From Chryseobacterium ginsenosidimutans (GTDB taxonomy: Bacteria; Bacteroidota; Bacteroidia; Flavobacteriales; Weeksellaceae): a DNA stretch of 64,000 bases. Location: assembly GCF_030823405.1 (NCBI RefSeq), contig NZ_JAUSXC010000001.1:2959001-3023000 (forward strand). The letters are read 5' to 3'. The notes under the pieces were generated by a model. That model worked only from the letters and a program-made list of their open reading frames with translations. It had not been told where the DNA came from and did not search any database. Positions 2,974 through 6,568 of the stretch are shown piece after piece. The stretch's first letter is position 1, and each line of letters opens with the position of its first letter. The translations under genes were made by a program, and so were the position numbers.

Positions 2974-3001
2974 AAAAAAGCACCGCATTATGCAGTGCTT
3001 T
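2974..3001. terminator. Bidirectional hairpin terminator between convergent genes
   Basis: Arms 2977-2986 and 2992-3001 pair with a 5-base loop. On the minus strand every position pairs (one G-U) and six U follow, so it ends the pyrophosphatase transcript. On the plus strand there is one C-A mismatch and a weaker U-rich tail after the aminotransferase gene. Confidence 0.8.
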
Positions 3002-3020: not shown

Positions 3021-5747
3021 TTAAAGAGCCAAAATCCTTACATCGATTCTTCTGTTCTTCGCCTTACATTCATCAGTATCATTTGCTTCACAGACAGGAT
3101 ATTGAGATCCGTAACCTTCTGCTTCTACCCTGTCACCAGCAACTCCTAATTCTAACAGCTTAAGTTTCGCGGTCTGAGCTCTTAAATTTGAAAGCTTCTG
3201 ATTGCTTTCTTCATTGCCTGAATTATCTGTATAGCCTCCCAATTTTATTTTCAAATCCGGATAAGCATTCAGAATTTCAACTAAATTTAATAACTGAACT
3301 TCAGAACCAGCTTTCAAATCACTTGAGCCCGTTTCAAAATAAAGATTTTCAATGGTAAACCATTTATTCGGATCCAAAACTGCCTGGTCTTTATTTTTAA
3401 CGGAATTATACATTTGAAATAACTGACTTCCTTCGCCGATGGAAATTTTCTTACCACCTTTTAACTGGATTTCCTGAATATTTCCTGTTTCATAAACAAA
3501 GTCTCCGTTTTCGTTTAGATGTCCTTTGATTTCTCCCGGAACCAAAGCTTGTGCAACAGCTCCCGAAGTCATATGAGTACCGGTAACTCCCATTAAAGCT
3601 TCAATTTTAGCTTTTCTGTTGGCTTCAATTTTATCTTTATGTAAAACCGCCAGAGTCGGTGCAATCACCAATGAAACTATTGACATTAATTTAATTAAAA
3701 TATTCATTGATGGTCCTGAAGTATCTTTAAAAGGATCTCCTACCGTATCACCTGTAACAGAAGCTTTATGAGGCTCAGAACCTTTATAATAAGTCTGTCC
3801 GTTGATATCAACACCTTTTTCAAAAGATTTTTTAGCATTGTCCCAAGCGCCGCCTGCATTATTCTGAAACATTCCCATTAAAACTCCGCATACTGTTGCT
3901 CCGGCTAAAAATCCACCCAAAACCTCAGGTCCGAAAATAAAACCAATTAAAAGAGGAGAAATAATCGCAATTGCCCCAGGAAGCATCATTTTCTTAATCG
4001 AAGCATCTGTAGAAATAGCCACACATTTTTCGTATTCAGGTTCAGCTTTTCCTTCTAAAATCCCGGGAATTTCACGGAATTGGCGTCTTACTTCTTCTAC
4101 CATCGCCATTGCAGCCTGCCCCACCGCAGTAATTGCCAGTGAAGAGAAGATAAACGGAATCATTCCGCCAACAAATAGCCCTGCAAGAACATCTGCTCTA
4201 TAAATATCAATTCCATCGATTCCTGCAATTCCTACAAAAGCTGCGAATAAAGCTAAAGCCGTTAATGCAGCAGATGCAATTGCAAAGCCTTTTCCTGTTG
4301 CTGCCGTCGTGTTTCCAACTGCATCCAAAATATCCGTTTTTTCACGCACTTCTTTTGGTAATTCGCTCATTTCGGCAATTCCTCCTGCGTTATCGGCAAT
4401 AGGTCCAAAAGCATCAATTGCTAACTGCATTGCTGTTGTCGCCATCATCCCTGCCGCTGCAATAGCAACACCGTACAATCCGGCACACAAATATGATCCA
4501 TAAATACCTCCGGCCAAAACTATAATTGGGAGAAAAGTAGATTCCATACCAACAGAAAGTCCACCAATAATATTCGTTGCATGGCCAGTTGAAGACTGTC
4601 TCACAATACTTTTAACCGGTCTTTTACCCATTGCTGTATAATATTCCGTGATGATACTCATTAAAGTACCCACCACTAAACCGACCATAATTGCCCCGAA
4701 CACACCCATTTTAGTGAATTCGTGACCTCTTAAAAACATTTTGTCTGGTAAAATATAAGTAACTAAAAAATATGAGGCTATAGCTGTTATGACAATACTT
4801 CCCCAATTTCCTAGATTTAAAGCATTCTGAACACTTGAGGTGGACGAATCTTCATTATCATTAATTCTAACGAATAAAGTTCCTATCATGGAAAAGATAA
4901 TTCCTGTTCCGGCAATTAACATCGGTAAAAGAATCGGAGCAAAACCTCCGAAAGAATCTTCAGAAATTGTTTCTCTTCCCAAAACCATCGTCGCCAAAAC
5001 AGTTGCTACATAAGAACCGAATAAATCTGCTCCCATTCCCGCAACATCTCCAACATTATCTCCTACGTTATCTGCAATTGTTGCAGGGTTTCTCGGATCA
5101 TCTTCCGGAATTCCTGCTTCTACTTTTCCTACTAAATCTGCTCCAACGTCTGCAGCTTTTGTGTAAATACCACCGCCTACTCTTGCAAAAAGCGCAATAG
5201 ATTCTGCTCCCAGAGAAAACCCTGTAAGAATCTCAATCGTTCTTTCCATTTCGTGAGATTCTACAGGTGCACCCGGTGCAAAGATCTGTTTTATAATCAA
5301 ATAAAGAGATCCAAGACCCAAAACAGCTAATCCTGCAACTCCCATTCCCATTACAGAACCTCCAGCAAAAGAAACTTTTAAGGCTTTAGAAAGCGAAGTT
5401 CTTGCAGCTTCAGCAGTTCTTACGTTGGCTTTGGTGGCGATTTTCATTCCGATAAAGCCAGCTAGAGCAGAAAATACGGCTCCAACAACAAAAGCAACTC
5501 CGATACTCCAGTGAGAATTGACATTTGTCATGCCCATGACTGCTAATAAAATAGCTACAATAACTACGAAGTAAGACAACACGTTGTACTCGGCTTTTAG
5601 AAAGGCCATTGCACCGTCAGCGATGTGACCGCTGATAATTTTCATTTTCTCATTTCCGGCATCTTGCTTCCTCACCCAATTACTTTGAAGAAAGGTGTAG
5701 AGTAAAGCAACCACACCAAAAATTGGTACTAACACAAATAGATTCAT
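3021..5747 (-). CDS. hppA: Membrane-bound ion-pumping pyrophosphatase fused to an OmpA-like domain
   Basis: 908 residues. Residues 1 to about 700 are a membrane pyrophosphatase, which couples PPi hydrolysis to Na+ and/or H+ export. The PPi-binding loop [11 protein letters not shown] sits at 200-210, followed by [16 protein letters not shown] (226-235) and a second acidic cluster near 449-455. [10 protein letters not shown] at 478-487 has Ala482 and Gly485, the K+-dependent signature (K+-independent pumps have Lys and Thr). About 690-790 is a linker, and 790-908 is an OmpA C-terminal-like peptidoglycan-binding domain: [29 protein letters not shown] and NRRIDV. Family pumps have 16 membrane helices with both ends outside the cytoplasm, so this tail would face the periplasmic cell wall. 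The 908-residue length against the usual 670-770 is explained by the extra domain. A promoter lies at 5854-5886, with a leader of about 100 bases. Confidence 0.93.
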
Positions 5748-5896: not shown

Positions 5897-5934
5897 AAAT
5901 AAAAAAAGGATAAACGAAAAATCATTTATCCTTT
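5897..5934 (-). terminator. Terminator after ppa
   Basis: A perfect 10-bp stem (5905-5914 with 5925-5934, 10-base loop) is followed on the minus strand by a run of U from the A tract at 5897-5904. It is 23 bases past the ppa stop and ends the long minus-strand gene run. Confidence 0.85.
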
Positions 5935-5956: not shown

Positions 5957-6568
5957 TTATCCTCCGAATTTATTTGCGTAATCCTCCTGAGATGCTTTGA
6001 TTACTGTTTTAGCATGTTCAGCGCCGTAAACCTCTTGAATTCTACATTTTGCAGGCTCATCCGGTAAGTTTTTGTATGTTAAAAAGTAGTGCATTAATCG
6101 TTTCACTTCAGCTTCAGGCAATTCTGCGATATCTCTGAAATGTCCGAAAGCGTGATCACCGATCATTACTGCTACGATTTTGTCATCAGCTTCTCCTCCG
6201 TCAATCATTTTGAAACCTCCGATCGGAATAGCCTCCATGAACAATCCGCCTCCGTGTATATTATGAGAACTCAAAACACAGATATCCAATGGGTCATGAT
6301 CTCCCGTTGTAACGTCTGTAGCTCCTCTTTCAACAGCCAATTTCATTACTTCGTTATCACAATATGTTCTTGGTACAAATCCGTATAAAGCCGGAATAAT
6401 ATTTGAAAATTTCTGAGGTCTGTCTACCTTTAAATATCCTGTTTCTTTATCTACTTCATATTTAATAGTATCTGAAGGAACGATCTCCACGAAAACGTTC
6501 ACAACATTTGGCGCATCTTCTCCTGCAGAAACCCCGTGCCATGGATGTGCTTTAAAATTTGGAATCAT
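5957..6568 (-). CDS. ppa: Soluble inorganic pyrophosphatase, family I
   Basis: 203 residues; hydrolyses cytoplasmic PPi to two phosphates and so pulls biosynthetic reactions forward. The family I signature is GDHDPLD at 89-95 with metal-binding Asp90, Asp92 and Asp95. A substrate lysine precedes it (IKYEVD, 35-40) and the acidic cluster DGGEADDK follows at 123-130. It is last in the minus-strand run that may begin at lolD, 23 bases after the preceding gene, and ends at a strong terminator. The next gene on the strand encodes the membrane pyrophosphatase from its own promoter, so the dissipating and the energy-conserving PPi enzymes lie side by side. Confidence 0.92.
   Translation of the reverse strand: MIPNFKAHPWHGVSAGEDAPNVVNVFVEIVPSDTIKYEVDKETGYLKVDRPQKFSNIIPALYGFVPRTYCDNEVMKLAVERGATDVTTGDHDPLDICVLSSHNIHGGGLFMEAIPIGGFKMIDGGEADDKIVAVMIGDHAFGHFRDIAELPEAEVKRLMHYFLTYKNLPDEPAKCRIQEVYGAEHAKTVIKASQEDYANKFGG

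Follow-up and report, generated by a model that had tools for sequence, protein, structure and literature searches.

A K+-dependent membrane pyrophosphatase with a C-terminal OmpA-like module in Chryseobacterium ginsenosidimutans and other Bacteroidota: a putative wall-tethered pump

Introduction

Can an ion pump of the inner membrane be held to the cell wall by its own C-terminus? The question is raised by a gene found in a stretch of 64,000 nucleotides from Chryseobacterium ginsenosidimutans (NCBI RefSeq assembly GCF_030823405.1, contig NZ_JAUSXC010000001.1, positions 2,959,001 to 3,023,000 of the forward strand), hereafter called the window. A first-pass annotation of the window had read in this gene a membrane pyrophosphatase (m-PPase) joined to a periplasmic OmpA-like domain, and had proposed an ion pump tethered to the wall or coupled to outer-membrane proteins. 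Here, we ask whether the fusion is real, which ion the pump would move, where the additional domain would lie and what it might bind, and how far the arrangement extends among related bacteria.

Results

The fusion gene and its neighbourhood

The gene is a single intact ATG frame of 908 amino acids on the minus strand (3021-5747), as seen in the open reading frame check, and it is the sole PF03030 match, with 0 internal stops, in a genome that consists of 1 contig of 4,296,724 bases. Pfam places H_PPase at residues 12-695 (910.4 bits) and OmpA (PF00691) at residues 803-899 (58.8 bits, cut-off 27.2), each score clearly above its threshold, so that the continuous frame described by the first-pass annotation is confirmed, and the residues and motifs that it had pointed out (Ala482/Gly485, GYTDNSG, LSNLRA and NRR) were all found in the translation. 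An assembly join or a frameshift as the source of the fusion is practically out of the question, since the genome is one contig and many independent assemblies share the architecture; the fusion is real and widespread. Its parts and nearest neighbours are the following, with the basis of each in brackets:

3021..5747, minus strand: whole gene, membrane pyrophosphatase with C-terminal OmpA-like module, 908 aa (frame, Pfam, genus genomes)
3648..5747, minus strand: residues 1-700, 16-helix m-PPase core with A482/G485, E182 and G244/A248 (Pfam, model, alignment, class table of PMC10897367)
3531..3647, minus strand: residues 701-739, variable linker (model, omega)
3372..3530, minus strand: residues 740-792, small beta segment, alignable to DUF937-OmpA proteins and apparent lipoproteins (alignment, model)
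3024..3371, minus strand: residues 793-908, OmpA-like domain with D841, R856 and Cys886/Cys894 (Pfam, Foldseek, conservation)
2977..3001, minus strand: terminator-like hairpin after the gene, beginning 20 bases past the stop (consensus scan only)
5905..5934, minus strand: terminator-like hairpin in the interval between the soluble pyrophosphatase gene and the pump gene (consensus scan only)
5957..6568, minus strand: soluble inorganic pyrophosphatase, 203 aa, PF00719, upstream neighbour outside the fusion (Pfam)

With one hairpin after the stop and another between the two pyrophosphatase genes, the pump gene may form a unit of its own, although the scan, made by consensus only, found 5 hairpins against a mean of 2.4 in shuffles. 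The soluble pyrophosphatase (5957-6568) lies directly upstream of the pump, two enzymes with one substrate thus being encoded side by side. A survey of neighbours for the soluble pyrophosphatase alone found it in 48 of 116 fused and 9 of 43 unfused loci; many of these loci are too short to reach it, and some places entered the counts twice. Wherever it was found, in fused and unfused loci, it was always upstream and on the same strand; 7 of the 9 enzymes from unfused loci match that of the window weakly (52-63 bits).

The pump core

The core belongs to the membrane pyrophosphatases by its full-length PF03030 match and its 16-helix fold, and Foldseek laid it on solved m-PPases with TM-scores of 0.87-0.90 by target length. 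In this family, alanine at position 12.46 marks the K+-dependent enzymes and lysine the K+-independent ones (class table of PMC10897367). Residue 482, numbered 12.46 by inference from the motif that holds it ([10 protein letters not shown]), is an alanine and is accompanied by Gly485, the K+-dependent signature, which agrees with the type assigned in the first-pass annotation. Alignment with the H+-PPase of V. radiata sets E182 against S235, A248 against E301 (6.57) and G244 against residue 297 (6.53). We infer that S235, and with it residue 182, stands at position 5.43, since papers give serine there in other classes and the three rows with Ser182 (L100, L109 and L167) carry glutamate at 244. 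Glutamate at residue 182 is present in 115 of the 116 fusions readable there, from a total of 132 distinct fusions.

Glutamate at 5.43, none at 6.53 or 6.57 and alanine at 12.46 are the residues given for the class of Flavobacterium johnsoniae, which is K+-dependent and H+-pumping (PMC6882861, Table 1; PMC10897367). The core of the window carries the same combination, with glutamate at the inferred position 5.43, a signature by which it probably pumps H+ rather than Na+. This specificity, read from residues, runs counter to the name of the NCBIfam family that matches residues 2-713 (sodium-translocating pyrophosphatase equivalog), and a Na+ pump as suggested by that name is unlikely given the E5.43 signature.

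The C-terminal extension

AlphaFold2, run on 30 sequences (mean pLDDT 81.9, pTM 0.71), predicted a helix bundle with helix up to residue 718, a stretch of pLDDT <50 at residues 714-739, a beta segment at about residues 740-784 and an OmpA-like end with pLDDT mostly of 74-92. Foldseek placed this end on the OmpA-like domains 5wtp, 5u1h and 3td3, and the domain is therefore OmpA-like by fold as well as by its Pfam match. Helix 16 and the OmpA domain are separated by 62-124 residues in 130 distinct fusions; as the linker is disordered, the position of the OmpA domain relative to the pump is not fixed by the model. According to the topology given in PMC8657866, even-numbered m-PPase helices start in the cytoplasm, so that helix 16 ends in the periplasm. 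No hydrophobic stretch follows residue 702 (the highest 19-residue mean is 0.98), on which ground we reject a 17th helix that would bring the OmpA domain back to the cytoplasm. By this predicted topology the C-terminus should be periplasmic, the side on which the first-pass annotation had placed it from knowledge of the family; the prediction of structure and topology that it had proposed for this part of the protein gives an OmpA-like fold with no further membrane helix.

In A. baumannii, the pair D271/R286 of OmpA is reported to bind diaminopimelate (PMC6572160), and by the motifs GxTD and LSxxRA, on which the equivalence rests, the corresponding Asp/Arg pair is present here as D841 and R856. 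All 132 distinct fusions have R856, and 131 have D841, the sole exception being a glycine in L021. For 59 of the 132 fusions the aspartate was preselected, as they stem from a pattern scan in which G-H/Y-T-D was required, and the fair count for D841 is 72/73 (R856, 73/73 in the same set), with 40 of the 73 coming from the genus of the window and all counts uncorrected for relatedness. Alignment of 30 sequences showed Ala482, Gly485, G837-N842, R856 and N898-R900 to be invariant.

OmpA-like domains can serve protein contacts too, and the domain might bind another envelope protein, for instance one of the outer membrane, or pair subunits instead of binding peptidoglycan. Dimerisation of OmpA via its C-terminus was indeed reported (PMC6572160), residues of the OmpA domain other than the pair are invariant too, and the neighbour survey, which covered the soluble pyrophosphatase alone, leaves room for a partner gene. 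However, the diaminopimelate pair is among the best-kept features of the domain, and we consider this alternative quite improbable. Coupling to outer-membrane proteins, the second option of the first-pass annotation, finds no support in our data, and a tether to the wall would be the simpler reading.

Two other features describe the extension. Cys886 and Cys894 are both present in 73 proteins and both missing in 59, with never one alone, a pattern, uncorrected for relatedness, that could be that of a periplasmic disulphide, although kinship alone could give the same. Rates of substitution were estimated in 39 pairs, the protein of the window against 39 genus members, from which 38 pairs were usable for the pump, 38 for the linker, 12 for the beta segment and 23 for the OmpA domain. 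Median omega was 0.023, 0.363, 0.074 and 0.046, respectively, values that are rough because dS is near or beyond saturation, so that the contrast between linker and OmpA domain is the point. This contrast suggests, in rough terms, that the OmpA domain is under purifying selection while the linker drifts.

Distribution of the fusion

The full-length fusion was found in 24 of 24 genus genomes including that of the window, the 23 others at 88-92% identity. No m-PPase match was obtained in G166 and G369, two further genus members with assemblies 99-100% complete, and the pump thus seems dispensable. The search for the same fusion in other genomes, which the first-pass annotation had recommended, was fruitful. 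In a family sample of 148 genomes, an m-PPase match at E <=1e-60 was obtained in 79, and the pump is fused in 67 of them: in 64 the alignment runs unbroken to residue 905 or beyond it, and three more are G050, G056 and G115, the last with a frame covering residues 564-906 in a broken assembly. Eleven of the 79 are unfused, six by reading and five judged from short frames, and G051, with a 693-aa frame, was counted as neither.

Among the matches listed for the order sample (296 genomes), those outside the family end by residue 765, a figure in which fusions aligned in two pieces would not show. Among those listed for the phylum sample (296 genomes), a one-piece fusion is present in G641 and G591, and reading of the loci added G538, G451 and G625; one of 20 further loci from other families, most of them picked for long frames, is fused as well (L104). 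A degenerate DNA pattern (MNILIKL, a gap and G-H/Y-T-D, with a distance window that excludes the window's own genus) was scanned against one genome per species in 84,980 species. It returned 64 stretches, and pump and OmpA domain lie in one frame in 63 of them, the exception being a 658-aa pump alone (L167); 26 of the 64 frames extend past the fetched stretch, and some of the genomes coincide with genomes of the samples above. Sixty-three titles name Bacteroidota: Spirosoma, Larkinella, Runella, Arcicella, Fibrella, Moheibacter (placed in Weeksellaceae by NCBI taxonomy), Capnocytophaga catalasegens, a Flavobacterium strain and many metagenome assemblies. As the pattern fixes the linker length and the M of MNILIKL, this count is a lower bound, and it is not informative on differently built fusions in other phyla.

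Gain, loss and descent of the module

A quick tree was built from 78 pump cores, 45 of them fused and 33 unfused, and the two states require a minimum of 11 changes along it. The tree is unrooted, so that gain and loss are indistinguishable in this count, and L100 and L103 were dropped from it by filters. The changes point to repeated gain or loss of the module in Bacteroidota. Unfused pumps sit within fused groups in the case of L083-L086, from the family, and of L105, beside L104 and L123; these last three share one genus code and have close pumps, with a short tail in L105 instead of the module, which makes them a natural comparison pair. No OmpA remnant was found downstream of the unfused pumps in seven loci (L083-L088 and L105) searched by profile over 1.5 kb in three frames. 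Since the module is absent from some close relatives, the pump can work without it.

A tree of OmpA domains was built from 43 of the 132 distinct fusions and 24 other proteins over 114 columns, with 34 of its 64 inner branches weak. Forty-two of the 43 fused domains share a clade with 7 domains of DUF937 proteins and 2 of lipoproteins, and that of L100 (G625) groups with other OmpA proteins, which makes a second origin likely; a single origin of all fusions is thus unsupported. The pump of L100 is itself of a non-E5.43 type (Ser182, Glu244), with a BON match below cut-off, and is probably a separate fusion. The fused pump of L148 (Flavobacterium sp. SUN052) groups with those of Cytophagales/Spirosomataceae, which suggests transfer or a mislabelled contig.

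The tails of Bacteroidota m-PPases are diverse: Cys-rich, acidic or domain-sized of unknown kind (L026, L030, L031, L085, L086, L093-L098, L101, L102), and the C-terminus of these pumps is a hot spot for periplasmic additions. Such variety, together with the 11 or more changes on the core tree, is what speaks for a neutral passenger, that is, a module captured at a permissive periplasmic C-terminus with little effect and possibly cleaved off. The purifying selection that appears to act on the module and the near-invariance of its binding residues across many lineages argue against it, and we hold it to be very improbable.

Other proteins bearing the module

The beta segment and the OmpA domain together also occur on other proteins. 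They are found on L201 and L203, with a lipoprotein signal recognised by eye, and after one membrane span on DUF937 proteins (L188, L234 and L240 by Pfam; others by resemblance). The module ends a P1B metal ATPase (L195:1190-4336) on a plasmid of Methylocystis rosea (NZ_CP044329.1), where it matches 94% of the Larkinella module with 51.7% identity; residues 833-851, ahead of it, form an additional hydrophobic stretch that could bring it to the periplasm. It stands at the C-terminus of cytochrome c oxidase subunit IV (COX4_pro) in G783 (L233:862-1800; L241), where its gene adjoins two COX3-family genes and a UbiA-family gene. The same genome bears the module on an m-PPase (L235) and on a DUF937 protein (L234). 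In SecD it lies inside the protein, flanked by the N-terminal part of P1 and the P1 head (L231:3373-5499 of G728; L232:2324-4498 of G689), in two genomes of one genus code. Support for these hosts amounts to one protein for the oxidase, two for SecD and one for the P1B ATPase. In all the cases looked at, the module would be periplasmic.

In profile searches, 16 of 198 class genomes (E <=1e-36) and 35 of 395 phylum genomes (E <=1e-40) proved to contain the module, and among the loci read, a classified subset of these matches, the commonest hosts are DUF937-like proteins and m-PPases. It occurs also on a CarboxypepD_reg protein with an apparent signal peptide (L239) and on small one-span proteins (L237, L238 and L255), so that its hosts are not only energy-coupled machines.

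The presence of the module on such machines (oxidase subunit IV, SecD, P1B ATPase) would fit a role beyond anchoring, in which the OmpA-like domain would sense its contact with peptidoglycan, or the spacing of the envelope, and adjust the pump accordingly. The linker, however, is variable and partly disordered and would make a poor lever, and close relatives keep the pump without the module; we regard wall-sensing as unlikely.

Discussion

The reading that we favour, and that the residues and predicted topology make fairly likely, is that of a K+-dependent, H+-pumping m-PPase of the F. johnsoniae E5.43 type tethered to peptidoglycan by its own C-terminus. Judging from the family, cytoplasmic pyrophosphate would be hydrolysed at the usual site and protons moved outward. 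Helix 16 would end in the periplasm, from where 62-124 residues, partly disordered and including the beta segment, would lead to the OmpA-like domain, and this domain, to judge by its conserved residues, may hold the diaminopimelate of the wall via Asp841 and Arg856. Known m-PPases are homodimers, which would give two wall contacts per pump. Through the tether, the pump would be held or positioned beneath the wall with its chemistry unchanged, and the module would act as a portable periplasmic wall anchor, used on other inner-membrane machines as well. If this holds, the pump's location beneath the wall is of consequence to the cell, which departs from the usual picture of m-PPases as self-contained pumps.

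More tentatively, and with some doubt, we hypothesize that a wall-tether module of Bacteroidota, about 150-170 residues long, was repeatedly joined to H+-pyrophosphatase, oxidase subunit IV, SecD, a P1B ATPase of a proteobacterial plasmid and DUF937 proteins, and that pinning machines to the wall is a general principle of the envelope. That a pyrophosphatase, an oxidase subunit, SecD and a metal ATPase all carry one module suggests a common means of fixing energy-converting machines beneath the wall. No report of DUF937 and OmpA together was found in the open-licence literature.

The first-pass annotation took this kind of fusion to be undescribed, which turned out not to be the case: an OmpA-like C-terminus was already reported for the m-PPase of Paucibacter and a few others (PMC11210485). 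This review, from 2024, gives it a paragraph, a table and a supplementary figure, with five sequences tabulated, and states that the role of the OmpA-like domain is 'to be elucidated'; the word peptidoglycan is absent from its main text. No other report of an m-PPase-OmpA fusion was recognised in the open-licence literature, and PMC4602150, PMC6908572 and PMC1586193, in the parts available, do not describe one. Therefore, as far as our searches of that literature go, the kind of fusion is known, while its H+-type form in Bacteroidota, its breadth, the repeated gain or loss and the shared module seem unpublished.

Compared with known systems, the closest is the protein of Paucibacter sp. KCTC 42545 (WP_058719013.1; 810 aa, predicted K+-insensitive, about 110 extra residues), in which, as in the window, an m-PPase and a C-terminal OmpA-like domain form one polypeptide; the other OmpA-fused m-PPases of the same review are mostly betaproteobacterial (PMC11210485). 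By that description, the fusion of the window differs in its core, which has the K+-dependent signature with E5.43 instead of the K+-insensitive type, in its longer extension with a beta segment and in its occurrence in Bacteroidota. The F. johnsoniae-type H+-PPase shares with the core of the window the putative E5.43, the lack of glutamate at 6.53/6.57 and Ala 12.46, a likeness drawn from published residue rules; that class is defined by the pump core alone, and many of its unfused cores in Bacteroidota bear other tails. The PsaB chain of photosystem I (PDB 7f4v chain aB), probably from Gloeobacter, is likewise a membrane protein that converts energy, and it resembles OmpA near its C-terminal end, where residues 753-864 of the chain match the query; its core is unrelated to that of m-PPases, and the open-licence literature yielded nothing bearing on this stretch. 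Inner-membrane machines attached to the wall through a periplasmic OmpA-like domain are known from the MotB stators and, as described for type VI secretion, from TagL/TssL. TagL/TssL and MotB are anchor subunits of multi-protein machines, whereas here the anchor would be carried on the pump polypeptide itself.
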